From a virus, in the IMG/VR virus record IMGVR_UViG_3300044846_003506, positions 28,455-92,454 of that record: a stretch of 64,000 nt of DNA; one strand, written 5' to 3'. A program made the translations under genes and the position numbers. The notes beneath the pieces are model-generated. The model saw only the letters and a list, made by a program, of their open reading frames with translations, searched no databases and was not told where the DNA came from. Position 1 is the stretch's first letter. Each line of letters opens with the position of its first letter. Below are positions 33,731-48,650 of the stretch, piece by piece.

Positions 33731-35110
33731 ATGAAAAGACTAATTAAAGAATCGGGGATTAGAGACATCAAAAATTTATCAAAAAGATACCCTAAAGCAA
33801 AAATTTATTTTCATCAAGATTTAGATGGTGTAACAACCGCCATTGCGATGAAAGAATATTTAGAGTCAAATAACATAAATGTTGTGGATGCTGAAATTAT
33901 TCAATATGGAGATAAAGAGTTTGCAATTAAAAAATTAGACGCTAAAGGTGATATAATGCCTGTTTTAGTTGATTTTGCTCACGGTAAACCAATGTTTGTT
34001 ATTCATACAGATCACCACGACACTCAAGCCGGAGTTGAGGACGGAACTGCAACTTCTTTTAGAAGTTCAAGATCTAATGTAGAGACAATATCTCAAAGTG
34101 TTTCACCTAAAGAAATATTCCCTAATGAAGATATTACATTAATTTCTACCGTAGACTCCGCAAATTTTGCTCAATATAATATTTCTGTTGATGAAGTTAT
34201 AAATTATCTATTTAAGATAGATAGAAATTCTGACGTTAAAAGAAATAAAATGTTAATGGGATTAGTTGCAAACAAATTACTATTGGCATTTAAAAACAAA
34301 CCAGGATTCTTAGAGGAATTAGTTTTAGATTGTAAACCTTCTTTACTTAATATACTACTTAAGATAAAATCTATAATGAAAAGAGAAGGTTTTGATAATG
34401 AAGAAAAACTAACACAAAACCAACAAAAATATATTCAAAGTATGAATGTTAGCCCTAACGTAAATGTTAGTGGAAACATATTAGTACAATACGGTGGAGG
34501 TTATATGACACCACAAGGATCTTACGATAGATACACACCTTTTAAAAATAATCCTGACGCTGACTTTTTAGTTATTGCTTGGCCAATGGGATTAGTTCAG
34601 GCTTCCTGTAACCCATATAAAAAAGAAAGAGCACTTAAAGGTGTTGATTTAGGTGAAATAAAAAATGAGGTTTTGGATGAGATGAATCCAGAATTAGAAA
34701 GTATTATAGTCCCATTATCAACATTAAAAGTTGTTTCAGAACAAAAAGCAACATTCAAATCAGTCGGATTTACATTCAAAGACTTTATGGCGATATATGG
34801 CAAAAGTCCTTCCTTAAAAGTTTTTGGTAGAAAAGAGACATTGTTCCCGATTATAGAAAATATAATGGATAGACCTTACAGAAATTTAAGTGTAAAACAA
34901 GTTGCACTATTGGACAAAGTTGTGTTAAATGGTAGAGACATCATAAATGCTAATTCAGGTGGACATAAATGTATTACTAATATTTCAGGTATTAATTCTT
35001 TATATAGAAAAAAAGATGGGAATGGACAAAAAAGTTATGTTGATCTAACAAAAGAAATACAACAGAAGTTTTACGAAATTTTACAAACAAAGATTAATAG
35101 TGAAAAGTAA
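33731..35110 (+). CDS. DHH-family phosphoesterase-like protein with LIKE leader
   Basis: 459 aa. The start MKRLIKESG gives an LIKE/S leader-type junction. DHH-type motifs follow: FHQDLDGVTTA (about 27-37), VLVDFAHG (about 79), HTDHHDTQ (about 92-98) and STVDSANFAQY (about 138). The DHH superfamily includes RecJ exonucleases, nanoRNases and cyclic-dinucleotide phosphodiesterases, so a possible role is degrading short oligonucleotides or signalling nucleotides such as defence messengers. Its length allows a C-terminal DHHA1-like domain, not clearly seen. The last 17 nt overlap the opposite-strand DUF192 gene. Confidence 0.7.
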   Translation: MKRLIKESGIRDIKNLSKRYPKAKIYFHQDLDGVTTAIAMKEYLESNNINVVDAEIIQYGDKEFAIKKLDAKGDIMPVLVDFAHGKPMFVIHTDHHDTQAGVEDGTATSFRSSRSNVETISQSVSPKEIFPNEDITLISTVDSANFAQYNISVDEVINYLFKIDRNSDVKRNKMLMGLVANKLLLAFKNKPGFLEELVLDCKPSLLNILLKIKSIMKREGFDNEEKLTQNQQKYIQSMNVSPNVNVSGNILVQYGGGYMTPQGSYDRYTPFKNNPDADFLVIAWPMGLVQASCNPYKKERALKGVDLGEIKNEVLDEMNPELESIIVPLSTLKVVSEQKATFKSVGFTFKDFMAIYGKSPSLKVFGRKETLFPIIENIMDRPYRNLSVKQVALLDKVVLNGRDIINANSGGHKCITNISGINSLYRKKDGNGQKSYVDLTKEIQQKFYEILQTKINSEK

Positions 35111-35441
35111 TCTTATTACCCTCAACGATATTATATTCTTCACAATGTCCTGCCGGTATTTCTAATATCATATCACCATACCCTTCAAATCTTTCACACT
35201 CTTCTTCTTTACAAGGAAGACAGTTGTGGTGTATTTCCGTTACTTCGTTATTTTTTATGAATATAATATCTAAAGGGATTATACAGTTTTTCATCCAAAA
35301 ACTATGATCACCATCTTCCATAATAAATAACATACCATCAAAAGAATTATTGAATTTTTTATTCATCATTCCATTTGAGATATCTTTTTGTGTGATAACA
35401 GGTTTAACTGTGTATTTGTTATTATTTATGATTATATCCAT
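35094..35441 (-). CDS. DUF192 protein
   Basis: 115 aa. GMMNKKF...GMLFIMEDGDHSFWMKNCIIPLDIIFI and the C-terminal EIPAG(H) segment match DUF192, a small beta-barrel family usually exported in bacteria. Here no signal peptide is present, so it is cytoplasmic or virion-associated. CLPCKEEEC adds three cysteines. Transcribed leftward from a TATTTAT palindrome shared with the Nudix gene. Confidence 0.8.
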   Translation of the reverse strand: MDIIINNNKYTVKPVITQKDISNGMMNKKFNNSFDGMLFIMEDGDHSFWMKNCIIPLDIIFIKNNEVTEIHHNCLPCKEEECERFEGYGDMILEIPAGHCEEYNIVEGNKITFHY

Positions 35442-35453
35442 ATTTATAAATAT
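35440..35453. promoter_or_regulatory. Palindromic divergent promoter candidate
   Basis: ATATTTATAAATAT puts a TATTTAT 4 nt before the minus-strand DUF192 ATG and 12 nt before the + strand Nudix ATG. Only 18 nt separate the two start codons. Confidence 0.55.
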
Positions 35454-35459
35454 ATTAAC

Positions 35460-35885
35460 ATGGCAGAATTTAACAGATATTCAGGTGTGGTGGTAAAAAA
35501 CAAAGATAAAGTTTTACTTTGTAAAAGGTCACCGAATAAAACTTTACCAAATGAATGGTCCATACCATCTGGTAAGGTTGAAGGAAATGAAACCCCAAAA
35601 GAGGCGGCTATAAGGGAGTTTTATGAGGAAACTAATATTAAATTAAAAGGTGATTTAAATATTGTTGACATTCTTAATATGTACAAAAGAGATGGAGAAA
35701 CTAAAAAAGGTCTTATGTATGTATATCAATACAATACAAATCAAGAAATTAATCCGGATCTAAAAAAAGCTAGAGATGGGTTTGAACATACTAAATGTGG
35801 GTATTTTACAAAAACAAATAACCCATTAAATGAAAAAAACAAAGATTTTAAGAAAATAATTATGAATATCTTTAATAAAGATTGA
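35460..35885 (+). CDS. Nudix hydrolase
   Basis: 141 aa. A perfect Nudix box Gx5Ex7REUxEExGU-type sequence lies at 38-58 (GKVEGNETPKEAAIREFYEET). Hydrolyses nucleoside diphosphates linked to X: oxidised dNTPs, NAD, dinucleoside polyphosphates or RNA caps; the substrate is not visible. A longer in-frame start at 35388 would run through the opposite gene and the promoter, so ATG 35460 is chosen. Confidence 0.85.
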   Translation: MAEFNRYSGVVVKNKDKVLLCKRSPNKTLPNEWSIPSGKVEGNETPKEAAIREFYEETNIKLKGDLNIVDILNMYKRDGETKKGLMYVYQYNTNQEINPDLKKARDGFEHTKCGYFTKTNNPLNEKNKDFKKIIMNIFNKD

Positions 35886-36620: not shown

Positions 36621-36647
36621 AGGAATCAGAAATGGTTCCTTTTTTTT
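36621..36647 (+). terminator. Rho-independent terminator
   Basis: AGGAATCA/TGGTTCCT stem (36621-36628, 36633-36640), GAAA loop, T-run to 36647. The end of the T-run merges into the next promoter's TTTG. Confidence 0.8.
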
Positions 36648-36676
36648 GTTTTATTAAAAAATTATTCTTAAATTTG
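36645..36676 (+). promoter_or_regulatory. Bacteroidota-type promoter, leaderless geometry
   Basis: TTTG 36645-36648, 20 nt, TAAATTTG 36669-36676, then 4 nt to ATG 36681. Confidence 0.7.
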
Positions 36677-36680
36677 TCTT

Positions 36681-37070
36681 ATGGAAAAAGTATTATATAT
36701 CGTTAGAGGAATTCCGGGATCCGGAAAATCAACATTTGCCAAAACATTAGGTGGACAACACTATGAAGCGGATATGTTCTTCATTAATGAGAATGGGGAA
36801 TATAATTTTGATGTAACCAAAATCAAAGATGCTCACCAATGGTGCCAAGGAATGGTTAAAGCACATATGATATTAGAGTACCCAAAGATTGTTGTGTCAA
36901 ATACGTCAACTCAAGAGTGGGAACTTGAAGCATACTTTGAATTGGCAAAAGAATATGGGTATACTGTTTTTTCAGTGGTAGTTGAAAACAGGCATGGGGG
37001 AGTAAACCAACACGGAGTACCTGAAGATAAGTTAGAACAAATGCGTAATCGTTTTAATATAAAATTATGA
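36681..37070 (+). CDS. Small P-loop kinase (polynucleotide-kinase-like, AAA_33 type)
   Basis: 129 aa. Walker A GIPGSGKST at 10-18 directly after the first strand, an EADMFF (D-x-F/Y) segment at about 29-34, and IVVSNTSTQEWELEAYFELAKEYGY (about 73-97), the pattern of the phage/eukaryotic AAA_33 (N4BP2/PNK-type) kinase family. RNRFN supplies possible lid arginines. Its stop overlaps the start of a metallophosphoesterase (ATGA), the same pair of activities fused in bacterial Pnkp RNA-repair enzymes. RNA or DNA 5'-OH kinase activity is therefore likely but inferred. Confidence 0.7.
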   Translation: MEKVLYIVRGIPGSGKSTFAKTLGGQHYEADMFFINENGEYNFDVTKIKDAHQWCQGMVKAHMILEYPKIVVSNTSTQEWELEAYFELAKEYGYTVFSVVVENRHGGVNQHGVPEDKLEQMRNRFNIKL

Positions 37071-37720
37071 GTTTTAAAAAAATATTGACAACAGGAAAAG
37101 TGTGGATTACAAGTGATACACACTACGGTCACAAAAATATTGTAAGAGGAACTACCAATTGGAGAACACAAGATGGTGAAGTACCGGTGGGTTCTACTCG
37201 TGACTTTCAAACTATTGAACAGATGAATGAACGTTTGATTGATGGTATAAATCATTTTGTGGGTCAGGAAGACACTCTAATTATGTTGGGCGATGTTTCA
37301 TTTGGTGGATTTGATAATATTGGAATCTTTCTTGAAAGGTTGGTTTGTCACAACATTCACTTAATATTAGGGAATCACGATCACCATATTGACAGAAACT
37401 ATGATTTTGTTCAAAAAAGGTTTTTAAGTGTTCAACACTATTTGGAAGTGAACATTGAAGGTAAAGATTTTGTGTTATGTCACTACCCACTACAAAGTTG
37501 GAATGGACTAAACAAAGGTGTAATACACCTTCATGGACACGTCCATTTACCGGAAAATAGAAAATTTGGTAATGGTAGAAGAATGGACGTTGGTGTTGAT
37601 GGTAATAGAATGGATCCATATAGTATTTCTGATATCATTAAAATAATGGATAAAAGAACGGTTGGTTCTGATATGTCAGGAGATCATCACTTGGATGGAT
37701 TAGTTGGTGTTGTGGGTTAA
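37067..37720 (+). CDS. Metallophosphoesterase (possible RNA 3'-end phosphatase)
   Basis: 217 aa. Calcineurin-like motifs: TSDTHYGHKN (15-24), MLGDVSFG (about 71), LGNHDHH (about 103), CHYPLQSW (about 139) and HLHGHVHL (about 153). DTHYGHKNI is typical of the phage/bacterial phosphoesterase group with D-x-H...GHxN. Coupled by ATGA to the P-loop kinase, so it is likely a two-enzyme unit. In Clostridium-type Pnkp the middle domain is such a phosphoesterase that removes 2',3'-cyclic phosphates and 3'-phosphates. Confidence 0.8.
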   Translation: MSFKKILTTGKVWITSDTHYGHKNIVRGTTNWRTQDGEVPVGSTRDFQTIEQMNERLIDGINHFVGQEDTLIMLGDVSFGGFDNIGIFLERLVCHNIHLILGNHDHHIDRNYDFVQKRFLSVQHYLEVNIEGKDFVLCHYPLQSWNGLNKGVIHLHGHVHLPENRKFGNGRRMDVGVDGNRMDPYSISDIIKIMDKRTVGSDMSGDHHLDGLVGVVG

Positions 37721-37735
37721 ATTGCAACACCATAA

Positions 37736-37742
37736 TATTTAT
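37736..37742 (+). promoter_or_regulatory. TATTTAT motif (candidate phage promoter)
   Basis: Ends 4 nt before ATG 37747. Confidence 0.55.
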
Positions 37743-37746
37743 ATGT

Positions 37747-38997
37747 ATGACAAAAATTATTATTACAGAAAGACAAATGGATTTGATAGTAAAAAATCTA
37801 TTAAGTGAGGCAGTTGGTGTTCCAGAAGGTATTATTGAATCGGCAGAAAAATTATATGAAATCATTTTGAATCTATTAAAAGGTATGGACGATTACAATA
37901 CCACACAAACATTTACTGAAAACAATTTAGATTTAACAATATCTGATTATAAAATACACGAGTTAGAATTACGAGTTGAAATTAACGAAATGGATGATTA
38001 TGATGGACCTCTTGTTATGATGTCTGCTGGAGTTGCAAGCCAATTTAATTTTGATAAAAAAATATTAATGAAGGTACATAAATTAGATAATAGTATTGAA
38101 TTATCTTTAAATTTTGGATCAAATGAGGATAATTGGGATTCTGAAGACATTTATAACTATTTTAGTAAAGATAAGGTTGAATTTATATCTGTAATTGCTC
38201 ACGAAATTAAACATAAGTTTGATAAACAAAAAAAAGAAACGGATTTGATAGGTAAAGATGCTGATTACCAAGCATACACTAGTTCAGGATTAAACTTTGG
38301 AATTCCAGTGATTAATGAATTTATGAGACACAGTTATTTTATTCAACACGTTGAGAACCTTGTTAGACCAACTGAAATGGCAACAAGAATGAAATTAACC
38401 GGTATTACAAAAGAAAAGTTTAGAGAATTTTTTGAAAACGATAAAGTAGTTAAAGAACTAAAAGAAATTAGAGATTTTAGTTATACTAATTTAGTTAAAA
38501 AACTACACGAACAAATGGATAGAATTGATTCTTTATTATCACATGCTGGAGTACCTTATGAAGATATGTCTGAAGATAAAAAAATATATGTACTTATGGA
38601 TTTGGTTTATATTAATCTAATAAGTGCTAAAAAAGATATTTTTGATAGAATGACAGAGGATATGAATGATAGAGCCGCGGCATTTATGAGAATGATGGGT
38701 ATGGGGCATATGGTTAAAGATAATAATAGTGAAGGATTGGAGAAAGTTAGAAATAAGTTTTTAAACCACATTGCTAGATACCGAAATAAAGAAGAACAGT
38801 TCTTTGTTGACGAGTGCGAAAGATTTAATTATGTTGCAACAAAATTAATTAAAAGACTTTCTAAAATTTATTCACTTATTCCTGACGAAAAGGAAACCAC
38901 AAATGAATCAATAATTGATTGGGATCTACACCAAAAAATGATGGAGAAAAAACATGGAAAAAGAAAAATAGAAACCGAGTTTAAATTCAAACGTTAA
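37747..38997 (+). CDS. HExxH zinc metallopeptidase-like protein with LLSE leader
   Basis: 416 aa. N-terminal leader-type helix MTKIIITERQMDLIVKNLLSEA. A zinc-peptidase motif HEIKH lies near 152-156 (VIAHEIKHKFDKQ), the HExxH consensus. A later HVENLVRPTEMATR stretch (about 201) gives a candidate third ligand Glu, as in gluzincins. The second half is helical. Transcribed from a TATTTAT motif. Candidate packaged protease or peptidase cutting host or virion proteins; the leader and motif are seen, the role is inferred. Confidence 0.65.
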   Translation: MTKIIITERQMDLIVKNLLSEAVGVPEGIIESAEKLYEIILNLLKGMDDYNTTQTFTENNLDLTISDYKIHELELRVEINEMDDYDGPLVMMSAGVASQFNFDKKILMKVHKLDNSIELSLNFGSNEDNWDSEDIYNYFSKDKVEFISVIAHEIKHKFDKQKKETDLIGKDADYQAYTSSGLNFGIPVINEFMRHSYFIQHVENLVRPTEMATRMKLTGITKEKFREFFENDKVVKELKEIRDFSYTNLVKKLHEQMDRIDSLLSHAGVPYEDMSEDKKIYVLMDLVYINLISAKKDIFDRMTEDMNDRAAAFMRMMGMGHMVKDNNSEGLEKVRNKFLNHIARYRNKEEQFFVDECERFNYVATKLIKRLSKIYSLIPDEKETTNESIIDWDLHQKMMEKKHGKRKIETEFKFKR

Positions 38998-39001
38998 ATT
39001 G

Positions 39002-39033
39002 AAATCCTTTACTTTTTGTAAGGGATTTTTTAT
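39002..39033 (+). terminator. Rho-independent terminator
   Basis: 11-bp stem (39002-39012, 39018-39028) with G-T pair and T-run. Confidence 0.8.
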
Positions 39034-39042
39034 TTTAACTAT

Positions 39043-39408
39043 ATGAGAAAAATTATATTAGTTATATCGTTATTTACATTATCATTTATTAGTACCCCTA
39101 AAATATATAAAGGAACCGCAACATATTATGGTAAAAACTATACAGGTAGATTAACCGCATCAGGAGAAAAATTTCATAAAGATAGTCTAACTGCCGCACA
39201 CAAAACATTCAAGTTTGGAACTGTTGTAAAAGTAACAAACCTTATTAATGACTCTGTTAGATATGTTAAAATTAACGACAGATTGCCTAAATCATCAAGT
39301 CACATTATTGATCTATCCTACGGTACCGCCAAACAAATGGATTTCTTAAGAAGAGGAGTAATACCAGTCTCACTTGAAATTGTGGATACGGTACCAATTA
39401 AAAAATAA
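39043..39408 (+). CDS. RlpA-like double-psi beta-barrel protein, exported
   Basis: 121 aa. Signal peptide (1-18), then the RlpA signature: KGTATYYGKNYTGRLTASGE, LTAAHKTFKFGTVVKVTN, KINDR and IIDLSYGTAKQM. RlpA family proteins are lytic transglycosylases acting on peptidoglycan, or wall-binding DPBB domains; the catalytic Asp of the INDR and IDLS positions is present. A phage copy could aid wall degradation at entry or lysis. No SPOR domain. Confidence 0.85.
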   Translation: MRKIILVISLFTLSFISTPKIYKGTATYYGKNYTGRLTASGEKFHKDSLTAAHKTFKFGTVVKVTNLINDSVRYVKINDRLPKSSSHIIDLSYGTAKQMDFLRRGVIPVSLEIVDTVPIKK

Positions 39409-39411
39409 ATT

Positions 39412-39439
39412 AAATCCCTTCTTTACGGAGGGATTTTTT
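39412..39439 (+). terminator. Rho-independent terminator
   Basis: Stem AAATCCCTTC/GGAGGGATTT-type (39412-39421, 39427-39436) and T-run. Its end also supplies the next promoter's TTTG. Confidence 0.8.
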
Positions 39440-39468
39440 GTTTTATTAAAAAAACTTTTATATCTTTG
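39437..39468 (+). promoter_or_regulatory. Bacteroidota-type promoter, leaderless geometry
   Basis: TTTG 39437-39440, 20 nt, TATCTTTG 39461-39468, then 4 nt to GTG 39473. Confidence 0.7.
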
Positions 39469-39472
39469 TAAG

Positions 39473-39646
39473 GTGAAAAAGCCTTGTAAAGAATGCCCCC
39501 ACTTCATTCGTAATCGTCACAACGATACTATTGTTGATTTTGCTGAGAGAACCGGTAAGAAACACAATTGTCATATGACAGAGGGAAAAAAAGATTTGTG
39601 GAATGTTAAAGATAAAAAATTAGAATGTTATGGAAGTAAAAACTAA
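39473..39646 (+). CDS. 57-aa Cys/His protein
   Basis: Starts with GTG at 39473, 4 nt after the -7 box; longer starts would cross the terminator. Contains PCKECPHFIRNRHND...KKHNCHM and a final ECYG, a likely small zinc-binding protein (CxxC plus HxxCH). The look is that of a phage zinc-knuckle protein; partner unknown. Confidence 0.6.
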   Translation: MKKPCKECPHFIRNRHNDTIVDFAERTGKKHNCHMTEGKKDLWNVKDKKLECYGSKN

Positions 39647-39941
39647 ATTTGGAACATATATAAAAATGGAAACAGAAACAAGTACAAAACTAACTGGTGA
39701 TAAAATCACAGTATTTGTAGAAAGATTGAAAAAAATTGGAATTGATGTAAAACTATCAGGGAACTTTCCTTGGGTTTATATTACTGAGATCTGTGGTAAA
39801 AGAGTAACTGAAAAGTTTGAAGGAAATCACGGATTTACAATAATCTTTCTTCCTGGAAGAAACGATAGTCCACCATCTAATTTTACAGATATTACAGAGA
39901 TATTCAAACTATTAAGAAAATATACAAATGAAACTAATTAA
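39630..39941 (+). CDS. Hypothetical protein (METETSTKLTGDKI type)
   Basis: 103 aa. METETSTKLTGDKITVFVERLKKIGIDVKLSGNFPWVYI looks like a conserved start of a phage family, from memory; alpha/beta with no enzyme motif. ATG 39630 overlaps the upstream gene by 17 nt; ATG 39666 is an alternative. Overlaps the next gene by 14 nt. Confidence 0.55.
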   Translation: MEVKTKFGTYIKMETETSTKLTGDKITVFVERLKKIGIDVKLSGNFPWVYITEICGKRVTEKFEGNHGFTIIFLPGRNDSPPSNFTDITEIFKLLRKYTNETN

Positions 39942-40176
39942 ATTAACATCACATAGTGACAATAGTCCCATCTATATTAACATAGATGAAATCGGACATT
40001 TCAACGAAGGAGAAGTATCCAAAATGAATTCTAATGGTGTATTCAAACCGGAAAAATTTACCACAGTTGGTGTAACAACACATAATAATGGTGGGTTTAG
40101 AGTTAAAGAAACCCCAGAAGAAATTATTGTAAAAATTAAAATGATTAAAAACGCAAACAGTACACGAACAATATGA
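39928..40176 (+). CDS. Small FlbD-like beta protein
   Basis: 82 aa. MKLIKLTSHSDNSPIYINIDEIGHF...GVTTHNNGGFRVKETPEEI has the order of the FlbD/YkvI-type small beta family (PIYIN..I...G..V.E..EEI), often found in phages. Function unknown. ATGA overlap with the next gene. Confidence 0.5.
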   Translation: MKLIKLTSHSDNSPIYINIDEIGHFNEGEVSKMNSNGVFKPEKFTTVGVTTHNNGGFRVKETPEEIIVKIKMIKNANSTRTI

Positions 40177-40697
40177 ATTTAGACAAATTAACAATGGACG
40201 AACTTATTTCATTAAGAAATGAGATACAAGGAAGAATACATTCCTACACAGATGGGTATTTGTATATCTGTTCTGTCCGTCAGTTCGGTAGTGTATGGGA
40301 AGAAACCCCAAGTAGTTTATATGGTTTGAAAGAACTTTGTGATTCATATTACGGAGACAATGGTATTGTTGATGTTTATACTAACAACCCAAATTTGGAA
40401 TTTCCTGAGATGGAGTTTGAAAATTATGGTGACGTTATGTTTATTAAATCCGAGGATGATTACAGAGAGTGGATTAAACATACTAAGACTAAAAACCTTA
40501 TTGAAGATGTAACAAAACGACTTGATGAATGGGATGAAAGTAAAAATTTACCATTTAAGTACCGTCCTTCTTTTGCTCCACATTGGACAAGAGAAGATGT
40601 TAGTGAATGGGTTACAGAGTTTGAAAGTAAGAAGTGGGATTTTACTGAACCAAGATCTATGAAGATAAATTATCTTGAAGAAGATGGTGATAATTAA
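40173..40697 (+). CDS. Hypothetical protein
   Basis: 174 aa. Helical start (LDKLTMDELISLRNEIQGR), an alpha/beta middle (YLYICSVRQFG, YGLKELCDSYYGDNGIVDVYTNNP), Trp-rich acidic end (APHWTREDVSEWVTEF). No motif recognised; in the RNA-ligase transcription region. Confidence 0.5.
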   Translation: MNLDKLTMDELISLRNEIQGRIHSYTDGYLYICSVRQFGSVWEETPSSLYGLKELCDSYYGDNGIVDVYTNNPNLEFPEMEFENYGDVMFIKSEDDYREWIKHTKTKNLIEDVTKRLDEWDESKNLPFKYRPSFAPHWTREDVSEWVTEFESKKWDFTEPRSMKINYLEEDGDN

Positions 40698-40709
40698 AAA
40701 AATAATTTA

Positions 40710-40717
40710 TACCTTTG
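40710..40717 (+). promoter_or_regulatory. TACCTTTG -7 box, leaderless geometry
   Basis: Matches TAnnTTTG and ends 4 nt before ATG 40722; no clear TTTG at -33. Confidence 0.5.
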
Positions 40718-40721
40718 TATT

Positions 40722-40982
40722 ATGGAATTAGAAAAATTTGAACAAGCAAAAAAAATAAAAGAAACACTTGATAGGTTGGAAACACAAAAATCTAAATTAG
40801 AATATGCACTTAAATCTTGTTCTTTGGGGGCAACAATTGCATACTCAAGAGGTGGAGAATTCCGAAGTAAAGGTGAAATCAATCTTTATGACACAGGAGC
40901 AATTAGGGGGATGTTAACTAAAGAACTTGAGAGAATAAATGGGGAAATAGAGTTAGTGAACAAAGAATTTGAAAATATATAA
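40722..40982 (+). CDS. Small coiled-coil protein
   Basis: 86 aa: helix, a central SLGATIAYSRGGEFRSKGEINLYDTG beta hairpin, helix. Two bases separate it from the RNA ligase gene; possibly co-expressed with it from the promoter at 40710. Confidence 0.5.
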   Translation: MELEKFEQAKKIKETLDRLETQKSKLEYALKSCSLGATIAYSRGGEFRSKGEINLYDTGAIRGMLTKELERINGEIELVNKEFENI

Positions 40983-40984
40983 AT

Positions 40985-42112
40985 ATGGAAAATCAAAATA
41001 GTGTATCATACGTAGGGGTAATAGGTTCAGTATCTGAAATACCAGGTGCCGACAACATAGAATTAGTAACTGTTGGTGGTTGGAATGCCATAACTAAAAA
41101 AGGTGAATATAAGGTTGATGATCTTGTAGTTGTTGCAACTACTGATGCGGTAATACCAAAAGAATTATCAGATAAATTGGGGGTTACTAATTATTTACGT
41201 AAAGGTCAAAGAGTTAGGACTGTAAAACTTCGCGGGGTTTATTCTGAATGTCTTTTAATACCTAACAAATACATACCAGGTTTTGGGGATGTATATTATG
41301 TGGGGATGGACTTAATGGAAAAAATGGGAATACATAAGTATGAACCACCTGTAAAAACTATACAGTTAAGTGTAGGTGGACGTAAAGTGAAATACCACCA
41401 AAATCCTAACTTCAAAGTTTACTACAAGTTTCCTAATCAAAAGAACGTACCTGATATGTTCAGTGAGGAAGATGAGGTTGTTATAACTCGTAAGTTACAC
41501 GGAACCAATGCTCGTTACGGGATAGTTAGAAAGAAAACACTTTCTTTGTGGGACCGAGTTAAAATGTTTTTTGGAAATGAGTGGGTGGCATTTGAGTATG
41601 TTTATGGTTCCCATAACGTTGAAAAAGGTTCAGACTCACAAGGGTTTTATGATACTAACGTATGGGAAAACATATCAAACAAATACAACATACGTCAAAA
41701 ATTATGGGATCACGTAAAAGATACTTACTATCCAGATAAGTTAACTGAAGGTGTTGTTATATATGGTGAGATATACGGTGCCGGTATACAAAAAAACTAT
41801 GAATACGGTTTAACTGATGTTAAGTTTGTTGGGTTTGATGTTGAAGTTGATGGTGAATACCAACCATACATAAATGAAACTGTACACTTTGATTGCCTAC
41901 AATTACCACAAGTAGAATTATTATACCAAGGTAATTGGAATAAGGAGGAACAAGATAAGTTTGTGTTCAATAATAACATAGAAGGTACCAAAGTACCACA
42001 CGAAGGTATAGTAGTTAAATCAGTAACTGGTGATCGTAGAAAAGTATCCAAAGTGATAAATCCCGACTACTTAATATACGGTGAAAAAAATAATGTTGGT
42101 GACTCTCACTAA
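40985..42112 (+). CDS. RNA ligase (Rnl2/DRB0094-like)
   Basis: 375 aa. Nucleotidyltransferase motif I KLHGTN with the adenylated Lys near 170, motif III/IIIa WVAFEYVYGSHN (about 199), motif IV EGVVIYGEIYGAG (about 255) and motif V HEGIVVKS (about 339). About 110 N-terminal residues (VGVIGSVSEIPGADNIELVTVGGW...) resemble the OB-type N-terminal domain of the DRB0094/Rnl5 group. Seals RNA ends using ATP. With the kinase and phosphatase at 36.7-37.7 kb, it completes the three activities of tRNA/RNA repair. Ends with a strong terminator. Confidence 0.85.
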   Translation: MENQNSVSYVGVIGSVSEIPGADNIELVTVGGWNAITKKGEYKVDDLVVVATTDAVIPKELSDKLGVTNYLRKGQRVRTVKLRGVYSECLLIPNKYIPGFGDVYYVGMDLMEKMGIHKYEPPVKTIQLSVGGRKVKYHQNPNFKVYYKFPNQKNVPDMFSEEDEVVITRKLHGTNARYGIVRKKTLSLWDRVKMFFGNEWVAFEYVYGSHNVEKGSDSQGFYDTNVWENISNKYNIRQKLWDHVKDTYYPDKLTEGVVIYGEIYGAGIQKNYEYGLTDVKFVGFDVEVDGEYQPYINETVHFDCLQLPQVELLYQGNWNKEEQDKFVFNNNIEGTKVPHEGIVVKSVTGDRRKVSKVINPDYLIYGEKNNVGDSH

Positions 42113-42127
42113 GAGTCACCTTTTTTT
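42098..42127 (+). terminator. Rho-independent terminator
   Basis: Perfect stem GGTGACTCT/AGAGTCACC (42098-42106, 42112-42120), T-run to 42127. The ligase stop codon is inside it. Confidence 0.9.
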
Positions 42128-42160
42128 ATTAACTTTATAAAAATATATAAATAAACAATT

Positions 42161-42403
42161 ATGATACAAACGGCAAGAGACATCATTTATGGTGTGTGCG
42201 ATAAAACAGGAAAATGTGATTCGTACTTTGGATTCTTCAAAAATGAAGATGATGCAAAAAAAGAAATTAAAATCCAAGCAAACAGATTAAAAGAAGATCT
42301 TGGATATATGGACATTGTGGTTAAAGAAGATAGAGCCGTTATACTGAAAACAGATAGAGTAGAGGAGTTATTAATCGTTATACATAATTTTGTTTTAAGA
42401 TGA
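42161..42403 (+). CDS. Hypothetical protein
   Basis: 80 aa alpha/beta (IIYGVCDKTGKCDSYFGFFKNEDDAKKEI), possible Cys pair CDKTGKC. ATATATAAATA precedes it, a reverse-oriented TATTTAT. ATGA overlap with the next gene. Confidence 0.5.
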   Translation: MIQTARDIIYGVCDKTGKCDSYFGFFKNEDDAKKEIKIQANRLKEDLGYMDIVVKEDRAVILKTDRVEELLIVIHNFVLR

Positions 42404-42609
42404 TGAATAAAAAATTTAACTTAGATCTAATACCGTTCCTATCAAAAAACCTTTTTTGGTATTCCATCATGGTATTAGTTAATAAATCATTTAACCCAAT
42501 AGATTGGTGGATCTCCCAATATTTTTGGGGTGGGGTATTGTTTGTTATATTTGAATTTTTTATATTTAGTTCATGTCTAATAGAAAATAAAGAAGAAAAT
42601 GGGAATTAA
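42400..42609 (+). CDS. Small membrane protein
   Basis: 69 aa, two hydrophobic segments (about 14-28 and 38-60) with a Trp-rich middle (IDWWISQYFWGGVLF). The last 11 nt overlap the WCT-domain gene. Function unknown. Confidence 0.5.
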   Translation: MMNKKFNLDLIPFLSKNLFWYSIMVLVNKSFNPIDWWISQYFWGGVLFVIFEFFIFSSCLIENKEENGN

Positions 42610-43639
42610 ACAATTAAAAAAAGAAAATGATTATCTTAACATGACATTAGTTGAAATGTTAGGAAAGTTCGATACAAGTAAGACCAAAAAATATACTCAA
42701 TTTTTGGTTAAAATGATAAATAAAAGAAGGGAGATTTTTAATAATGAAACTAAAGAAAATTACATACGTAATTTACAAAATAATCATTTGGATGAAGTTA
42801 TTCCTAGTTCTGATTTTGATAATAATATGATAAGACATTATGTTTGTGATAGTCTTTTTAGTCATGATGCTATGGAAAGATTTGTTGAATTTTGTAAATT
42901 AATGGATAAAGGATTAGTTGATGAAAAAGACATTAGTAAATACGATTCTTGGGATATGTTAGAAATGCAACTTTTTGAGGCTAAGAATAAAGACATGTTC
43001 AAAAAGTCAAAAAAAGAAATTAGTATTATTTTTGAGGACGAGAATTATTTAATTTTTAGACCATTAAGTTATATGGCATCTTGTTCTTACGGGTATCAAA
43101 CAAAATGGTGTACTGCAATGGTTAATGACGCATCGTATTTCTACAGTCATTCAAGAGGAGTTTTAATTTATTTAATTGATAAAAAAGAAAATAGAAAATT
43201 TGCATTCCATAGTCCTGTTAAAGAATTTTACGACATGGATTCACATGAAAATCTTGTATTTAAAACGTATAATCAAGAAGATAAACAAATAGACACAATC
43301 CAAACAGGTCTACCAATTAATATTATTAAGATCATTTTAATGGAGGCGGACACTAGTTTACCAACAACATTACCTAACTATAAGTTATTTTCGGAAGAGG
43401 AAAAAATTATTTTTAGAAAATACAATGGTTATGATACTGTAACAGAAGAATTGGTTGATGAATTACCAATGCCGACACAGGTGGAAGACTTTGCACCACG
43501 ACTACGAGTTGTACCAAGATTAAGAAGACATGCTGGATCAATGATTCCTTTTCCTACTATTGTTAGAAGAGAAGAAACAACGGAAGAATATCTAACCAAA
43601 TGTATCGTTGACCATATTAACGAGGACAATGATGATTAA
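42599..43639 (+). CDS. WCT-domain protein
   Basis: 346 aa. Helical N-terminal part, then a domain with TKWCTAMVNDASYFYSHSRGVLIYLIDKKE (about 168-197) and a FAFHSPVKEFYDMDSHENL strand region. The W-C-T-A/S core followed by a Y-x-Y/H...G-V/L-L-I/Y-Y-L/V-I strand is the same as in the 644-aa protein at 23017. The C-terminus contains PAPRLRVVPRLRRH-like basic residues. Catalysis is possible (conserved Cys, His) but unproven. Confidence 0.55.
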   Translation: MGIKQLKKENDYLNMTLVEMLGKFDTSKTKKYTQFLVKMINKRREIFNNETKENYIRNLQNNHLDEVIPSSDFDNNMIRHYVCDSLFSHDAMERFVEFCKLMDKGLVDEKDISKYDSWDMLEMQLFEAKNKDMFKKSKKEISIIFEDENYLIFRPLSYMASCSYGYQTKWCTAMVNDASYFYSHSRGVLIYLIDKKENRKFAFHSPVKEFYDMDSHENLVFKTYNQEDKQIDTIQTGLPINIIKIILMEADTSLPTTLPNYKLFSEEEKIIFRKYNGYDTVTEELVDELPMPTQVEDFAPRLRVVPRLRRHAGSMIPFPTIVRREETTEEYLTKCIVDHINEDNDD

Positions 43640-43655
43640 ATAATTGAAATAAAGA

Positions 43656-43862
43656 ATGGAAAATAATACATATAAAAAAGTAACTTGGGAATGTGGTGAA
43701 TGTAAAACACAACACGAGTCATTCTCAAATAGACGTTGGGACATGCAAATATGTGACTGCGGTAAAAGTGGTTATGATCTTGAAGAACATTACTCAAGAA
43801 CTATGGGTAGTGTTAAATTAATAAAGGAAGAAACATTAATAGAAAATACAAATGAGGACTAA
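43656..43862 (+). CDS. Small zinc-ribbon protein
   Basis: 68 aa with WECGECKTQHES (about 9-18) and MQICDCGKSGYD (about 30-40), a CxxC...CxC zinc ribbon. Overlaps the next gene by 11 nt. Function unknown. Confidence 0.55.
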   Translation: MENNTYKKVTWECGECKTQHESFSNRRWDMQICDCGKSGYDLEEHYSRTMGSVKLIKEETLIENTNED

Positions 43863-44385
43863 AGAAGAATGGGAAAATAGATATCAATGTGTTAGAAGAT
43901 TGATGTCAGTTATGGATTCATTAACTGAGGACTTTAATGATAACCATCAAATCTTGGAGACTTGTGCCACAATGTTAAGAAACCCTATTATATTTGATAA
44001 TAACGTTAAAGAGGTTAAATCAAAATTACCATTCCATGTTGAGAATATGGAAAAAGAAACGGATGATCACCTGATTGGAATGAGTAATATTGTTTTATAT
44101 ATACACAAAAAAGGTTTACATAAAAAATGGAAATCGGTAGAAGACTTTAAGAAAACTTTAAAGGCTTTAAATGTTTTATTACCGATAGAAAAGGCATTGA
44201 ATAACAGTAAAATATTCAAACATGAATGGAATTTTAATTACGATAATATAGAGTCCTGTATTGAATGGGATAAAAAATTAGAATCTGTTGGGATCAAAGA
44301 ATTGGTTTGTGATACAACAAAAGAAAAAATATCGGTCAAAAAAATAAAAGAACTTTGGTTCGAAGAAAATAAACATTATCTTTAA
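43852..44385 (+). CDS. Hypothetical helical protein
   Basis: 177 aa, all-helical (ENRYQCVRRLMSVMDSLTEDFNDNHQILE...), no motif. Coupled to the zinc-ribbon gene by overlap. Confidence 0.5.
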   Translation: MRTKEEWENRYQCVRRLMSVMDSLTEDFNDNHQILETCATMLRNPIIFDNNVKEVKSKLPFHVENMEKETDDHLIGMSNIVLYIHKKGLHKKWKSVEDFKKTLKALNVLLPIEKALNNSKIFKHEWNFNYDNIESCIEWDKKLESVGIKELVCDTTKEKISVKKIKELWFEENKHYL

Positions 44386-44388
44386 ATT

Positions 44389-44538
44389 ATGAATAGAAAA
44401 ATTGAAACATTTTTGGCAATACTTTATGTATTAAACGTTGGAATGTGTATTGTATTAGAGAATTGGATTGCTATTGGAGGTTGGGGTTGTGCATTACTTG
44501 CACAATTAAGAATTATGGGCGTTATTAAAATTGATTAA
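44389..44538 (+). CDS. 49-aa membrane protein
   Basis: Hydrophobic throughout (FLAILYVLNVGMCIVLENWIAIGGWGCALLAQ), two short transmembrane helices. Sits exactly between neighbours with a TAAATG junction. Function unknown. Confidence 0.5.
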   Translation: MNRKIETFLAILYVLNVGMCIVLENWIAIGGWGCALLAQLRIMGVIKID

Positions 44539-44967
44539 ATGAGACATCACGTAAACTTTTACACGAATAGGTTAGTTACCGAATGGTTAAAAAATGGTAA
44601 GATTATAATTGGTTGTGATCTTGATGATACAATTATTCCTTATAATGAAGAAATTAAAGACAACTGTAAAAAAATGGTCGATTTAATTTTGGAATGCCAA
44701 AAGGAAGGTATTATATTTTTAATCAATACCGCAAGAAGTGAATACCAATTAGAAAAAGCAAAAGAACAAGTTGAAGAACTTGGGATCACCGTACACGGAG
44801 TAAATAAAATGCATCCTGAATGGGATAAACCATATGGCGTAAATGGTAAGATATACGCTAATATATTCCTTGATGATAGAGGTGGTTTTTGGGACACTTA
44901 TTGGATATTGACAAACGCTTTAACCATGGTTAAAATAGAAAGAAAAAATGGGGGTAAGAATGAATGA
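44539..44967 (+). CDS. HAD-superfamily phosphatase-like protein
   Basis: 142 aa. Motif I GCDLDDTI (about 22-29; DxDxT), motif II NTARSE (about 60) and a late FLDDRG (about 114) acidic motif III/IV. No cap domain. Could act on nucleotides or nucleic-acid ends, like T4 phosphatase folds. First of three small HAD proteins in this region. Confidence 0.7.
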   Translation: MRHHVNFYTNRLVTEWLKNGKIIIGCDLDDTIIPYNEEIKDNCKKMVDLILECQKEGIIFLINTARSEYQLEKAKEQVEELGITVHGVNKMHPEWDKPYGVNGKIYANIFLDDRGGFWDTYWILTNALTMVKIERKNGGKNE

Positions 44968-45502
44968 TAATCACAGGACAGATCAGGAATTTGAAAACTT
45001 TTTGAAAAATATTGGTGGTATAAAAATTTCACATAAACCACACTTGGAATCAATAACAGAAAGAAAACGATTTGGTGTTGGAAATGGATGGTTAGGGATA
45101 CTCCAAAGACTTTTTGAGGTATTAATAAAAATGGGATGGGACAAAAGTTTTATTAACGTTAAAGAAAAATTTGGTGGTATGAGCATATTTTTGGATAACC
45201 TACCAGAAAATGGGTTTTACTTTGTGGTGGAAGCGGAAAAAGAAACATTTTCTGTTTGTGAAGTTTGTGGAGAACCGGGAGAACAAAATAGTATTAAAGG
45301 TTGGGTTTATACTTTATGTGAAAATCATAGAGACGAAAAACTATATATTGAATACCAAGGAAAAACATATTTGACAAAATTATTGGAACCAATAAATAAT
45401 GGTGATTTATATTACAACGCCAAGACTAATGAAATTATGGTTTGTGATGTTAATAATTTTTTTGATCCTTGGTCTTTAAAAGCCCATGAAGTTATAAAAT
45501 AA
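44960..45502 (+). CDS. Hypothetical protein with KEKFGGM and CxxC motifs
   Basis: 180 aa. GVGNGWLGILQRLFEVLIKMGWDKSFINVKEKFGGMSIFLD followed by CEVCGEPGEQ...GWVYTLCENH (about 95-120) is a pattern common in many phages: a KEKFGGLRFY segment plus a zinc finger C-x-x-C...C-x-x-H. Known only as a conserved hypothetical. Starts inside the HAD gene (8-nt overlap); ATG 44948 is an alternative. Confidence 0.65.
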   Translation: MNDNHRTDQEFENFLKNIGGIKISHKPHLESITERKRFGVGNGWLGILQRLFEVLIKMGWDKSFINVKEKFGGMSIFLDNLPENGFYFVVEAEKETFSVCEVCGEPGEQNSIKGWVYTLCENHRDEKLYIEYQGKTYLTKLLEPINNGDLYYNAKTNEIMVCDVNNFFDPWSLKAHEVIK

Positions 45503-45519
45503 AAATATTAACAAAATAC

Positions 45520-45551
45520 TTGACACATATTAAAAAATAGTATATGTTTTG
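45520..45551 (+). promoter_or_regulatory. TTGACA ... TATGTTTTG promoter-like sequence
   Basis: TTGACA at 45520-45525 and TATGTTTTG at 45543-45551, the same one-base-longer -7 variant as before the gp47-like gene. Confidence 0.4.
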
Positions 45552-45569
45552 AAAACAATTAATGAAATT

Positions 45570-46004
45570 ATGAATATTAAACAAGCACTTAAGTTAAAAA
45601 ACAAATTGATTAAATCAATTAGTGATAACACAAAATTACTTCAAGAGTATAATACGGTTGAAGTCGGAAATGAAAGACCATATTCACCTGTATTATTGAT
45701 GGGTAATATAACAAAATCAACATATGAGTTGATTGAATTAAAATCAAAAATTCATAGATCAAACGCTCCGATGTTTGAAAAGATTTTTGAAATGTCTGAA
45801 TTAAAATCAAACATCAAAGCACTTCAAAAGTTGGATTGTACTGAAGGTAAATCTAATAGAGATCGTTACCGAATGGAAAGTGAATTAGTATTAACGTCGG
45901 AAGTTTCTTTGGTTGAAAGAAATGAAATTATTAGAGAAATGGAAGATAGAATTGAGGAACTCCAAGATGAAATGGATGTGTTCAATTCAAATACAGAAAT
46001 ATAA
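45570..46004 (+). CDS. DIP1984/septicolysin-like helical protein
   Basis: 144 aa. NIKQALKLKNKLIKSISDNTKLLQEYNTVEVGNERPYSP...ELIELKSKIHRSNAPM and the RMESELVLTSEVSLVERNEIIREMEDRIEELQDEMDVFN end follow the DIP1984 family layout (EAL.xRk.Lk.ri..L..rl; li..iN.tN; D.l...vs). Helical, no known enzyme activity. TTG 45549 lies inside the promoter box, so ATG 45570 is chosen. Confidence 0.55.
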   Translation: MNIKQALKLKNKLIKSISDNTKLLQEYNTVEVGNERPYSPVLLMGNITKSTYELIELKSKIHRSNAPMFEKIFEMSELKSNIKALQKLDCTEGKSNRDRYRMESELVLTSEVSLVERNEIIREMEDRIEELQDEMDVFNSNTEI

Positions 46005-46200
46005 TTTGAGGATAAGATTAAAGTTAAACTGTATCTACTTAGAAAACCGAATGGTTAGGTGAATGATTCTGATAATGTATAGTCCCAAACTCAATAATCA
46101 ACTCTTGAAAATTCATTACTCTCATTATTTAAACTTCTTTATTTTTGCGGTTTTTAATCTTTGAATCAAATTATATAAAACCCCACTTAGGTGGGGTTTT
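46005..46200 (+). ncRNA. Gene-free interval, candidate untranslated RNA
   Basis: 220 bp separate the genes here, unusual in this window. It holds a TATAATTTG box at 46000-46008, a stretch resembling a tRNA D- and anticodon-arm without a T-arm (46045-46075), and a terminator at 46177-46201. No credible ORF. It could be a small RNA or simply a long 3' UTR. Confidence 0.25.
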
Positions 46201-46201
46201 T
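46177..46201 (+). terminator. Rho-independent terminator
   Basis: AAAACCCCAC/GTGGGGTTTT (46177-46186, 46191-46200), TTAG loop. Confidence 0.9.
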
Positions 46202-46213
46202 AATTTTATACCA

Positions 46214-46220
46214 TATTTAT
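46214..46220 (+). promoter_or_regulatory. TATTTAT motif (candidate phage promoter)
   Basis: Ends 4 nt before ATG 46225. Confidence 0.55.
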
Positions 46221-46224
46221 TGTT

Positions 46225-46830
46225 ATGAAATATGTTCTTAATGAATCACAAGCAAATGAGATATCAAAACAACTGATTAAAATGTCAGAGAATGTTGGTT
46301 ATTATGAAACATTAAGTAGATTTAAATTACCTTTATCGGCTGCCAAAATTTTCTTAAAACCAAAAAATAGAAACAACTTTAGTTGTCAAGAACTAACTGA
46401 GATAATGTTCTATTACATTTTTCAAACTAAAGATATACCAGAAGTATTAAAAGTTGGTGAAATGGTAATAACAAATGAACCATATGATGGTGACGGGTTT
46501 CATTGGAATACATCAATTGTTGATAGATCTGGAGTTGTAGAATCTACTTACGGTTACGCCCAACCGTTTCTATGTTCAAATGAAGAGAATAAAATGATAA
46601 TTAGTTTTCGTTTTGATTATTATACGAGAGGTAATTGGCAAGAACCTGATGATGATTATATTGAAGAAGATGAATTTCATCTTGAATTCACATACGATAT
46701 GAGTGACATTGAGTTTAAAACTTTAGATCAGGTAATATCTTGGTATTTAAACGAATACCCAAAAATAGTTAAAATGTCCGCAAAGGAGTATTTTAAAAAG
46801 GCAAAAAGTTATAACGAAAAACATTCGTAA
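46225..46830 (+). CDS. Hypothetical protein with VLNE leader
   Basis: 201 aa. Starts MKYVLNESQANEISKQLI, a short LxE/S leader-type N-terminus, then an alpha/beta domain with SCQELTEIMFYYIFQ and FHWNTSIVDRSGVVESTYGYAQPF (about 92-115), where a Cys, His and Asp could form a papain-like triad (C53...H93...D99). That idea is speculative. Own TATTTAT promoter. Confidence 0.55.
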   Translation: MKYVLNESQANEISKQLIKMSENVGYYETLSRFKLPLSAAKIFLKPKNRNNFSCQELTEIMFYYIFQTKDIPEVLKVGEMVITNEPYDGDGFHWNTSIVDRSGVVESTYGYAQPFLCSNEENKMIISFRFDYYTRGNWQEPDDDYIEEDEFHLEFTYDMSDIEFKTLDQVISWYLNEYPKIVKMSAKEYFKKAKSYNEKHS

Positions 46831-46838
46831 TTATTTTA

Positions 46839-46870
46839 TTTGTAAAATCAAAATTTTTTTACTATATTTG
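46839..46870 (+). promoter_or_regulatory. Strong Bacteroidota-type promoter, leaderless geometry
   Basis: TTTG 46839-46842, 20 nt, TATATTTG 46863-46870, then 5 nt to ATG 46876. Confidence 0.75.
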
Positions 46871-46875
46871 TATCT

Positions 46876-47454
46876 ATGAAAGTTATATTTTTAGACAACG
46901 ACGGAGTTATATGTCTCTCCAACAATTGGGGTGGACGAACTAAGAAATGGGCAAAATACCGTAGTGAAAACCCTGATGGTAGTAAAGAAAAAAAAGACGC
47001 ACCTGTTGAGTATCGTTTTGATGATTTTGACACAAAGGCTATTAAGGTACTTAATGAGATACTTGAAGAAACTGGAGCTGAAATTGTTGTAAGTTCAGAT
47101 TGGAAATTACACGCAACTCTTGAAGAACTTGGTGACTACTACGAAAGTCAGGGTATTATCAAACGACCAATTGCTTTAACACCTAATATACAACATTGTA
47201 CCGTTCATGGTGATTTATTTATGTGGTCACCACGATGGGAGTCAGAACAATTACGAACTATTGAAATTAAACAATATCTTCACGATCACCCTGAAATAAC
47301 TCACTGGGTTTCTATAGATGATTTAAATATGGGTAAGATTGGGGAGCCTTGGAAGGATGAATGGGCAATTGATAATTTTGTATTAACACCAAAATCAAAT
47401 GAAGGAATTAAACAATCAGGAGTAAAAGAAAAGATTATAAACTACTTAGGATGA
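46876..47454 (+). CDS. HAD protein of the Swiss-Army-Knife RNA-repair type
   Basis: 192 aa. Starts MKVIFLDNDGVIC (DxDG motif I at 7-10), then LEETGAEIVVSSDWKLHATLEEL (motif II Ser near 73), and HWVSIDDLNMG with acidic motif IV (about 153). This is the layout of the HAD domain found in Swiss-Army-Knife RNA-repair proteins. If so, it would remove a phosphate from RNA ends. It is promoted from a strong host-like promoter, consistent with early expression. Confidence 0.65.
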   Translation: MKVIFLDNDGVICLSNNWGGRTKKWAKYRSENPDGSKEKKDAPVEYRFDDFDTKAIKVLNEILEETGAEIVVSSDWKLHATLEELGDYYESQGIIKRPIALTPNIQHCTVHGDLFMWSPRWESEQLRTIEIKQYLHDHPEITHWVSIDDLNMGKIGEPWKDEWAIDNFVLTPKSNEGIKQSGVKEKIINYLG

Positions 47455-47958: not shown

Positions 47959-48273
47959 ATGAAAAATATAAGACAAATATTCAAAAATAATGAACATCTA
48001 ATGGATCTAACTCCTGTTGATGAGTTAATAGAATATACTCAAGAACTTGAAGGTAAGGTGTTTGAAAAAAACATTGAGGACAATTATAGTAAGGAACATA
48101 TGTTAAAATCTATGTTGCAGGATATATTAAATAGTTGTCGTGATATGGAGGAAACAAACAAACTTGCTGAAAGATACCCTGGTATGTATGAAAAAAGTGA
48201 TGCAGAATCTTTAGTAAAAAATTTAAAAGATTATATTTTAGATATGAGTTTTATGAATAATTTAGGTTTATGA
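47959..48273 (+). CDS. Hypothetical helical protein
   Basis: 104 aa. Starts MKNIRQIFKNNEHLMDLTPVDELIEY; a helical acidic protein, no motif. ATGA overlap with the HAD gene downstream. Confidence 0.5.
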   Translation: MKNIRQIFKNNEHLMDLTPVDELIEYTQELEGKVFEKNIEDNYSKEHMLKSMLQDILNSCRDMEETNKLAERYPGMYEKSDAESLVKNLKDYILDMSFMNNLGL

Positions 48274-48650
48274 AAAAAAGAGTTTATTTGATTGATATTG
48301 ACGGAACGGTATGTGATGACATAAAAAACGAGGATAGTGATCTATACTCAATTGCAAAACCATACGAAGGATCCAAGGAAGAGATAAATAAACTTTACGA
48401 TGAAGGAAACAAAATTGTTTTTTTTACTGCTAGAGAGTATAAAGATAAAGGGACCACTCTTGCTTGGTTGTGGAGACACGGATTCAAGTTTCATGACTTG
48501 ATTACAGATAAACCAAGGTGTTTAGAGGATGAAGAATATGTTTGGATTGATAATAAACCAGTAAGAGGTATTACCTATAAAGGCGAATGGGGACCGATAA
48601 CGGAAACAAAAAACCAAGAAGTTGGTATTTTATTAAACTTTAAAAAATGA
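48270..48650 (+). CDS. HAD-superfamily phosphatase-like protein
   Basis: 126 aa. KRVYLIDIDGTVCDDI gives motif I DxDGT (8-12); FFTAREYKDKG gives motif II Thr near 52; VWIDNKP near 91 the late acidic motif. Capless, similar in size to NLI/5'-nucleotidase-like phage HADs. Third HAD in 4 kb. Confidence 0.7.
   Translation: MKKRVYLIDIDGTVCDDIKNEDSDLYSIAKPYEGSKEEINKLYDEGNKIVFFTAREYKDKGTTLAWLWRHGFKFHDLITDKPRCLEDEEYVWIDNKPVRGITYKGEWGPITETKNQEVGILLNFKK

Follow-up and report, generated by a model that had tools for sequence, protein, structure and literature searches.

A dispersed kinase, phosphoesterase, and RNA ligase of a bacterial virus as a probable module for RNA end healing and sealing

Three separate genes of a virus of bacteria, encoding a stand-alone polynucleotide 5'-kinase domain (KIN), a calcineurin-like phosphoesterase (MPE), and an ATP-dependent RNA ligase of the Rnl5/DRB0094 kind (LIG), probably form a dispersed module that heals and seals the ends of broken RNA. 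The genes lie in a stretch of 64,000 nucleotides, here called the window, that covers bases 28455 to 92454 of the 92,454-base IMG/VR record IMGVR_UViG_3300044846_003506, which is possibly a fragment; the G+C content of the window is 29.8%. In window coordinates, KIN occupies 36681 to 37070 (129 amino acids), MPE 37067 to 37720 (217 amino acids), and LIG 40985 to 42112 (375 amino acids), all on the + strand. A fourth + strand gene, HAD1 (46876 to 47454, 192 amino acids), encodes a HAD phosphatase of the Swiss-army-knife RNA-repair type, whose association with the module is uncertain. A sequence-only reading had singled out these four open reading frames, and their positions proved exact and their catalytic motifs intact. 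Megablast of the region against phage records gave no match. The argument draws on the families and folds of the proteins, on active sites that are intact, and on linkage that recurs; taken comparatively, the evidence that the kinase, the phosphoesterase, and a ligase heal and seal RNA ends appears to us to be strong.

Linkage of the three genes in phages and bacteria

The sequence-only reading had suggested a search for conserved linkage in related phages, and such linkage was found: the proximity of KIN, MPE, and a ligase is kept through reordering, ligase replacement, and gene fusion. Among 41 relative contigs in which KIN is flanked on each side by 3 kb or more, 36 have MPE no farther than 3 kb from it; among 36 in which LIG is flanked on each side by 7 kb or more, 27 have both KIN and MPE no farther than 7 kb from the ligase. 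These contigs overlap in ancestry, some perhaps being the same virus, and the counts are not independent. Besides KIN-MPE with LIG farther downstream, the relatives show the orders MPE-KIN-LIG (L203, L206, L210, L228), KIN-LIG-MPE (L211, L222), and LIG-MPE-KIN (L227), and a diverged MPE upstream of KIN that tblastn had missed was found by profile in L208, L209, L212, L214, L216, and L218. Because the order changes while the proximity is kept, the linkage would seem to reflect more than shared ancestry. As for the linked set of four genes that had been proposed, it holds across lineages for KIN, MPE, and the ligase, but HAD1 is only loosely associated with it.

The kinase and phosphoesterase genes are common in phages. 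KIN matched 614 phage records by tblastn and MPE 1,449, most of them annotated as "ATPase," "phosphoesterase," or hypothetical. Kinase matches spread over the ranking gave a sample of 13 groups of cultured phages, in which MPE lies within 5 kb of KIN in 11 groups and an Rnl1 ligase does so in 10. Under random placement of one copy, the mean chance of falling within 5 kb is 0.076 per gene; the resulting binomial values of 3e-11 for MPE and 1.5e-9 for Rnl1 take the groups as independent and are a rough guide only. Gene order varies here too, being MPE-RNL1-KIN in Phapecoctavirus, the same with small genes interspersed in Kassivere, PAK_P4, and Mydovirus, and RNL1-KIN-MPE in Ceto and VF16; in the Vequintavirus relatives, RNL1 and KIN-MPE are divergent. 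Some of the MPEs in this sample, whose annotation is hypothetical or something else, were picked up by profile. The exceptions are Shewanella phage 1/4 (a kinase fragment), Vibrio phage 1.170.O, and VPALA (MPE with no ligase nearby). Several of the triads adjoin genes of NAD+ reconstitution (phosphoribosyl pyrophosphate [PRPP]-synthetase-like and NAMPT-like), to which PAK_P4 adds a macro-domain gene. NAD+ reconstitution being a known counter-defense pathway, these neighbors fit a counter-defense neighborhood.

The same partners occur on bacterial chromosomes. When bacterial genomes were scanned with the kinase alignment, at least two matches were obtained, one of them a 492-residue protein of Neisseria sp. 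in which an AAA_33 kinase domain is fused to a T4-type Rnl1. That locus also encodes a PHROG 547 phosphoesterase (E value, 3e-49), the family to which MPE belongs, and a Ro60/TROVE protein (vWA_Ro60 E value, 2e-16, and TROVE). Of 46 Neisseria-genus genomes, 11 have a match to the kinase-Rnl1 fusion, which in some of them is fragmentary. MPE lies 0.07 to 1.7 kb downstream of the fusion, on the same strand, in all eight of the eight Neisseria-genus loci inspected, and the TROVE gene lies upstream in seven of them (loci of this kind are at L336:5749-11838 and L348 to L354). A small gene stands between TROVE and the fusion in some of these loci. Ro60-type proteins are RNA-binding scaffolds that have been tied to RNA repair (PMC7824862). 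The Neisseria locus is the strongest single argument that the kinase, the phosphoesterase, and the ligase would act together on RNA.

Families, folds, and active sites

KIN matches AAA_33 in Pfam (E value, 4e-9) and PHROG 2071 (E value, 3.5e-41), the latter with a profile match that spans the domain. Its motifs are the P-loop GIPGSGKST, D31, NT at residues 74 and 75, and NRH at residues 103 to 105; in 52 relatives there is no variation at the P-loop lysine and serine or at D31, N74-T75, N103, and H105. These residues align with T4 Pnkp, including the catalytic aspartate of that enzyme. The KIN profile found few matches in the PDB, among them the Clostridium Pnkp kinase and T4 Pnkp. An AlphaFold2 model of KIN (predicted local distance difference test score, 87.5) likewise gave CthPnkp (4jt2) and T4 Pnkp (1ly1) as the best Foldseek matches, with adenylylsulfate (APS), gluconate, and shikimate kinases ranking below them; the template modeling scores of about 0.65 indicate the same fold, not functional identity. 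KIN is accordingly described, as modeled, as having a predicted polynucleotide-kinase fold with its P-loop and catalytic aspartate present. KIN is also hit by a PADLOC model of a CARF/PDDEXK/AAA defense protein, over the N-terminal part of that model (E value, 5e-12), so similar kinase domains may occur in host defense proteins.

MPE has no match in Pfam. It belongs to PHROG 547 (E value, 1.5e-46; the profile match spans the domain) and keeps the metal ligands of the calcineurin type (D17xH19, G75-D76, G102NHD105, H139, and G157HVH160). The catalytic motifs of KIN, MPE, LIG, and HAD1 are all invariant or nearly so among the relatives. Lambda phosphatase is among the solved structures closest to MPE, and the annotation of PAK_P4 puts its MPE relative in cd07390, MPP_AQ1575. 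We know of no established substrate for the family, and we likewise know of no solved phosphatase domain of CthPnkp, so the missing Foldseek match between MPE and a Pnkp phosphatase was not used as evidence. The linkage points to MPE as a candidate 3'-phosphatase or 2',3'-cyclic phosphodiesterase. In Flavobacterium phage immuto (L310:6880-8651), the closest cultured-phage relative of MPE directly follows four tRNA genes.

LIG combines the Pfam domain PF09414 (RNA_ligase; E value, 7e-15) with the OB domain PF21189 and belongs to PHROG 968. The OB domain is N terminal (residues 10 to 125, approximately) and is followed by the nucleotidyltransferase domain, in which the motifs are K170-L-H-G-T-N, E262, E340-G...K345, and K356; K170 (in KLHGTN), E262, E340, K345, and K356 are invariant among the relatives. 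The LIG profile matches the Naegleria gruberi ligase NgrRnl (5cot) across the OB domain (E value, 9e-22), and the invariant residues agree with the catalytic set of NgrRnl (K170, D172, E227, E312, and K326; PMC9931718). LIG had been read from the sequence as Rnl2/DRB0094-like. The DRB0094 part of that description is supported by a nearly full-length match to the DRB0094 model TIGR02306 (E value, 1e-32), and the Rnl2 model matches more weakly (E value, 2e-6). At 113.1 bits, the TIGR02306 match is below the equivalog cutoff of 151.15, and LIG is filed as a putative DRB0094-like ligase without proven equivalog status.

Gene layout, promoters, and neighboring genes

The ATGA overlap between the stop codon of KIN and the start codon of MPE, already noted from the sequence, was confirmed, and through it the two genes are probably translationally coupled. 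The claim of host-like promoters at KIN and at the HAD gene was also borne out: Bacteroidota-type sites of the form TTG-N20-TAnnTTTG lie on the + strand at 36646 to 36676 (TTG-N20-TAAATTTG, 4 nucleotides 5' of the KIN ATG) and at 46840 to 46870 (TTG-N20-TATATTTG, 5 nucleotides 5' of the HAD1 ATG). In all, the + strand of the window holds 17 sites of this form, whereas mononucleotide shuffles give about 4. In the ligase region, for which a promoter had been thought probable, there is a TAnnTTTG box at 40710 (+), 4 nucleotides 5' of gene 40722, which is immediately upstream of LIG. The shape of the promoters would allow early transcription of KIN and HAD1 by the host polymerase. Of the 63 TAnnTTTG boxes on the + strand, 11 lie 2 to 7 nucleotides 5' of an ATG, against 1 to 3 with scrambled motifs; they include those at 36669, 46863, 59739, 51541, and 40710. 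This position suggests that leaderless or near-leaderless transcripts may be made in this phage.

The description of the HAD protein as one of the Swiss-army-knife RNA-repair type was upheld: HAD1 matches HAD_SAK_2 (PF18143) with an E value of 1.6e-20 and 74.3 bits, against a gathering score of 27.5, belongs to PHROG 1818, and has its catalytic residues (D7xD9, S73, and D148-D149) intact, the DxD and DD motifs being invariant in the relatives. Within the clade of this phage, HAD1 follows LIG by about 4 to 6 kb. Most rearranged triads lack it, as do all of the cultured-phage triads that were examined, and tblastn of HAD1 found only 2 cultured phage records. Its membership in the module is correspondingly weaker, and it is possibly an accessory. 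In some contigs (L243 to L246, L286 to L288, L302, and L303), a HAD of this type is convergent with KIN at a distance of 2 to 4 kb, and no close MPE or Rnl5 ligase was found there; a replacement of the phosphatase is possible in such contigs. Two further small HAD proteins are encoded at 48270 to 48650 and 44539 to 44967. The former matches HAD_PNKP below the cutoff (E value, 7e-4) and PHROG 415 (E value, 1e-9); its resemblance to a phosphatase of the T4 type is weak, the match to T4 Pnkp being partial (25% over 63 amino acids; E value, 0.06).

Among the other neighbors, the gene at 42599 to 43639 encodes a protein with a YGYQTKWCTA motif (PHROGs 17056/28193), and diverged relatives of it stand exactly between KIN and MPE in about 14 related contigs. 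We do not claim these genes as a fourth component, since further copies of the family occur at other places in these contigs. Just upstream of KIN are genes for a NUDIX hydrolase (35388 to 35885) and a weakly DHH-like protein (33731 to 35110), which are kept in many relatives, and a DUF192 gene (35094 to 35441, - strand) lies amid this + strand run and overlaps both of its neighbors.

Proposed role and alternatives

ATP-grasp RNA ligases need 5'-phosphate and 3'-OH ends, which are made by kinases and phosphatases (PMC7824862). In the module that we propose, KIN would place a 5'-phosphate on broken RNA, MPE would leave a 3'-OH, and LIG would seal the healed ends. The chemistry of each step, above all the healing of 3' ends by MPE, is what we infer from the data above, together with the order of the steps, the RNA substrate, and a role in counter-defense. 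The ligase would be the replaceable part: this phage group has Rnl5, whereas the Neisseria fusion and other phages have Rnl1. Such a module would most likely serve to undo RNA cleavage by nucleases or toxins of host defense, with tRNA as a prime candidate substrate, and the repair of anticodon loops cut by host defense is plausible. No tRNA genes were found in the window or in the remainder of the 92-kb record, all of which was searched; this fits a reliance on host tRNAs without showing it.

Several points weigh against this interpretation. To our knowledge no activity has been described for KIN or for PHROG 547 phosphoesterases, and none was found in our analysis. The solved structures nearest to MPE are 1xm7 (aq_1665, uncharacterized) and 1s3l (an archaeal phosphodiesterase). 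Contigs L011, L061, and L068 carry KIN, and no MPE or ligase was found within 20 kb. In control phages chosen from the MPE matches regardless of kinase, MPE occurs with no kinase or RNA ligase match nearby (Flavobacterium phage immuto, phage PBS1, and phages of Staphylococcus, Delftia, and Cellulophaga). In a Stenotrophomonas phage, its neighbor at 0.9 kb is a T4-type Pnkp, in which a HAD phosphatase is already part of the chain. The kinase-free occurrences indicate a broad family, and the proposed role is therefore limited to its kinase-linked members. Finally, the Naegleria relative of LIG, NgrRnl, seals nicks (PMC9931718) and so fits an anticodon loop less well than Rnl1 does; T4 uses an Rnl1-type ligase on anticodon loops (PMC3400036), and LIG is of another family.

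It is very improbable that the genes are neighbors only through shared ancestry and the dense packing of early genes, with no joint function. Close relatives do keep the order of the entire region, the unrelated NUDIX, DHH, and RlpA genes included, and the genes are 0 to 10 kb apart with many others between them. This explanation is nevertheless largely refuted by the reordering, in which proximity is kept, and by the kinase-Rnl1 fusion beside the same MPE in Neisseria; moreover, the ligase has been replaced by a nonorthologous family at the same place. A role for KIN and MPE in DNA repair or replication, through the healing of ends or nicks in DNA and with the RNA ligase incidental, could draw on the facts that Pnkp kinases accept DNA, that a DNA ligase gene is often within a few kilobases in the cultured phages, and that the lone MPE adjoins DNA replication genes in the Delftia and Cellulophaga phages. 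We consider it unlikely, as the fused and constant neighbor is an RNA ligase, the Neisseria locus carries an RNA-binding protein in Ro60/TROVE, and no ATP-dependent DNA ligase was found in the 92-kb record, possibly a fragment.

The NAD+ reconstitution genes and the macro-domain gene beside some cultured-phage triads would also suit a counter-signaling MPE that acts on small cyclic or dinucleotides of host immunity or on NAD-derived products, the kinase then serving nucleotide metabolism, and the MPE family is without assigned substrates. Yet it is the linkage of RNA ligase and kinase that is constant and not that of the NAD genes, no NAMPT-like gene was found in the 92-kb record, and the kinase model matches polynucleotide kinases best, which makes this function improbable. 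The idea that HAD1 is the 3'-end healer and that MPE does something else is doubtful as well. Stand-alone phosphatases in phage RNA repair are usually of the HAD_SAK kind (PMC7824862), and in L065, L074, and L302 HAD1 is convergent with KIN at 2 to 4 kb while a close MPE and LIG are absent; on the other side, MPE is nearly always present in the rearranged and cultured-phage triads from which HAD1 is so often missing, and HAD1 is rare among cultured phages.

End healing and sealing by KIN, MPE, and a ligase thus remains the interpretation that we favor. A broader formulation, whose chances of being right or wrong we see as evenly balanced, is that KIN and the PHROG 547 MPE are a portable RNA end-healing cassette, distinct from Pnkp and T4 Pnkp, with a new calcineurin-like 3'-end healer and an interchangeable ligase slot. 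Rnl1 would fill this slot for single-stranded loops and Rnl5 for nicked duplex RNA (for example, tRNA stems or rRNA helices). Hundreds of phages would employ the cassette against defenses that cleave RNA, and bacteria of the genus Neisseria would employ it together with a Ro60 particle. The tie to RNA ligases would give a testable function to phage genes that are common and unassigned, and the ligase swap suggests that the ligase of a phage may be matched to the type of break in the RNA. A chromosomal Ro60/TROVE locus of the genus Neisseria would also be linked in this way to a phage module.

Comparison with known systems

The sequence-only reading had called the set Pnkp-like. As a functional analogy, and for the fold of the kinase, this is apt: bacterial Pnkp of the CthPnkp type also comprises a kinase, a phosphatase of the metallophosphoesterase superfamily, and a ligase, and its kinase fold is the closest structural match to KIN. 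It is not borne out as homology. The activities of bacterial Pnkp are in one chain, as opposed to three separate open reading frames here, its ligase is PF16542 (PNKP_ligase) whereas LIG carries PF09414 and PF21189, and its phosphatase is of the PPP/lambda type, with motifs GDVHG and GDLVDRGP/GDIVDRGP that are unlike those of MPE. Neither the KIN nor the MPE profile matched the bacterial Pnkp chains of four proteobacterial genomes at an E value of 10 or less, and a split bacterial Pnkp was therefore rejected.

T4 Pnkp (PseT) and Rnl1 offer another parallel: this phage, too, encodes a 5'-kinase of the same fold, a phosphatase, and, at a short distance, an ATP-dependent RNA ligase (pseT and rnlA are 1.4 kb apart). 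The T4 kinase, however, is fused to a HAD 3'-phosphatase, whereas KIN is a kinase domain only; the phosphoesterase linked to KIN is calcineurin-like, and the ligase of the window is PF09414/DRB0094-like rather than Rnl1 (PF09511). The bacterial Pnkp1-Rnl-Hen1 system resembles the present set in having its kinase/phosphatase and ligase on separate chains; it repairs tRNA cleaved by ribotoxins, its kinase is fused to a T4-like phosphatase, and the Hen1 methyltransferase is required (PMC4411300). With the Rnl5 ligases (Deinococcus DRB0094 and Naegleria NgrRnl), LIG shares the N-terminal OB domain, the nucleotidyltransferase core, and the KxHG lysine, but it falls short of the TIGR02306 equivalog cutoff and is linked in phages to a kinase and a phosphoesterase.

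That phages can have modular RNA repair, its kinases and phosphatases dispersed, is already known: a survey of jumbo phages describes ATP-grasp ligases, separate kinases and phosphatases, SAK-type HADs, and a few calcineurin-like phosphatases (PMC7824862). The RNA-repair section of that survey is without the pair of stand-alone kinase and PHROG 547 phosphoesterase and without the ligase swap. Among the papers searched, we found none that names MPE as the missing partner or reports the ligase swap or the Neisseria fusion locus; a 2016 survey in Nucleic Acids Research (gkw793) may mention the triad. Also near to our proposal is the 2025 report on the Pakpunavirus phage Adele, in which a stand-alone kinase beside RNA ligases is proposed to restore cleaved tRNA and is noted to lack a 3'-phosphatase (PMC12846349). 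PAK_P4, a member of Pakpunavirus, has the same kinase family, Rnl1, and MPE. With the kinase reported to be without a 3'-phosphatase, the linked MPE is the natural candidate, and, unlike the Adele report, we propose that this neighboring phosphoesterase may supply the activity described as missing in kinase-only phages.

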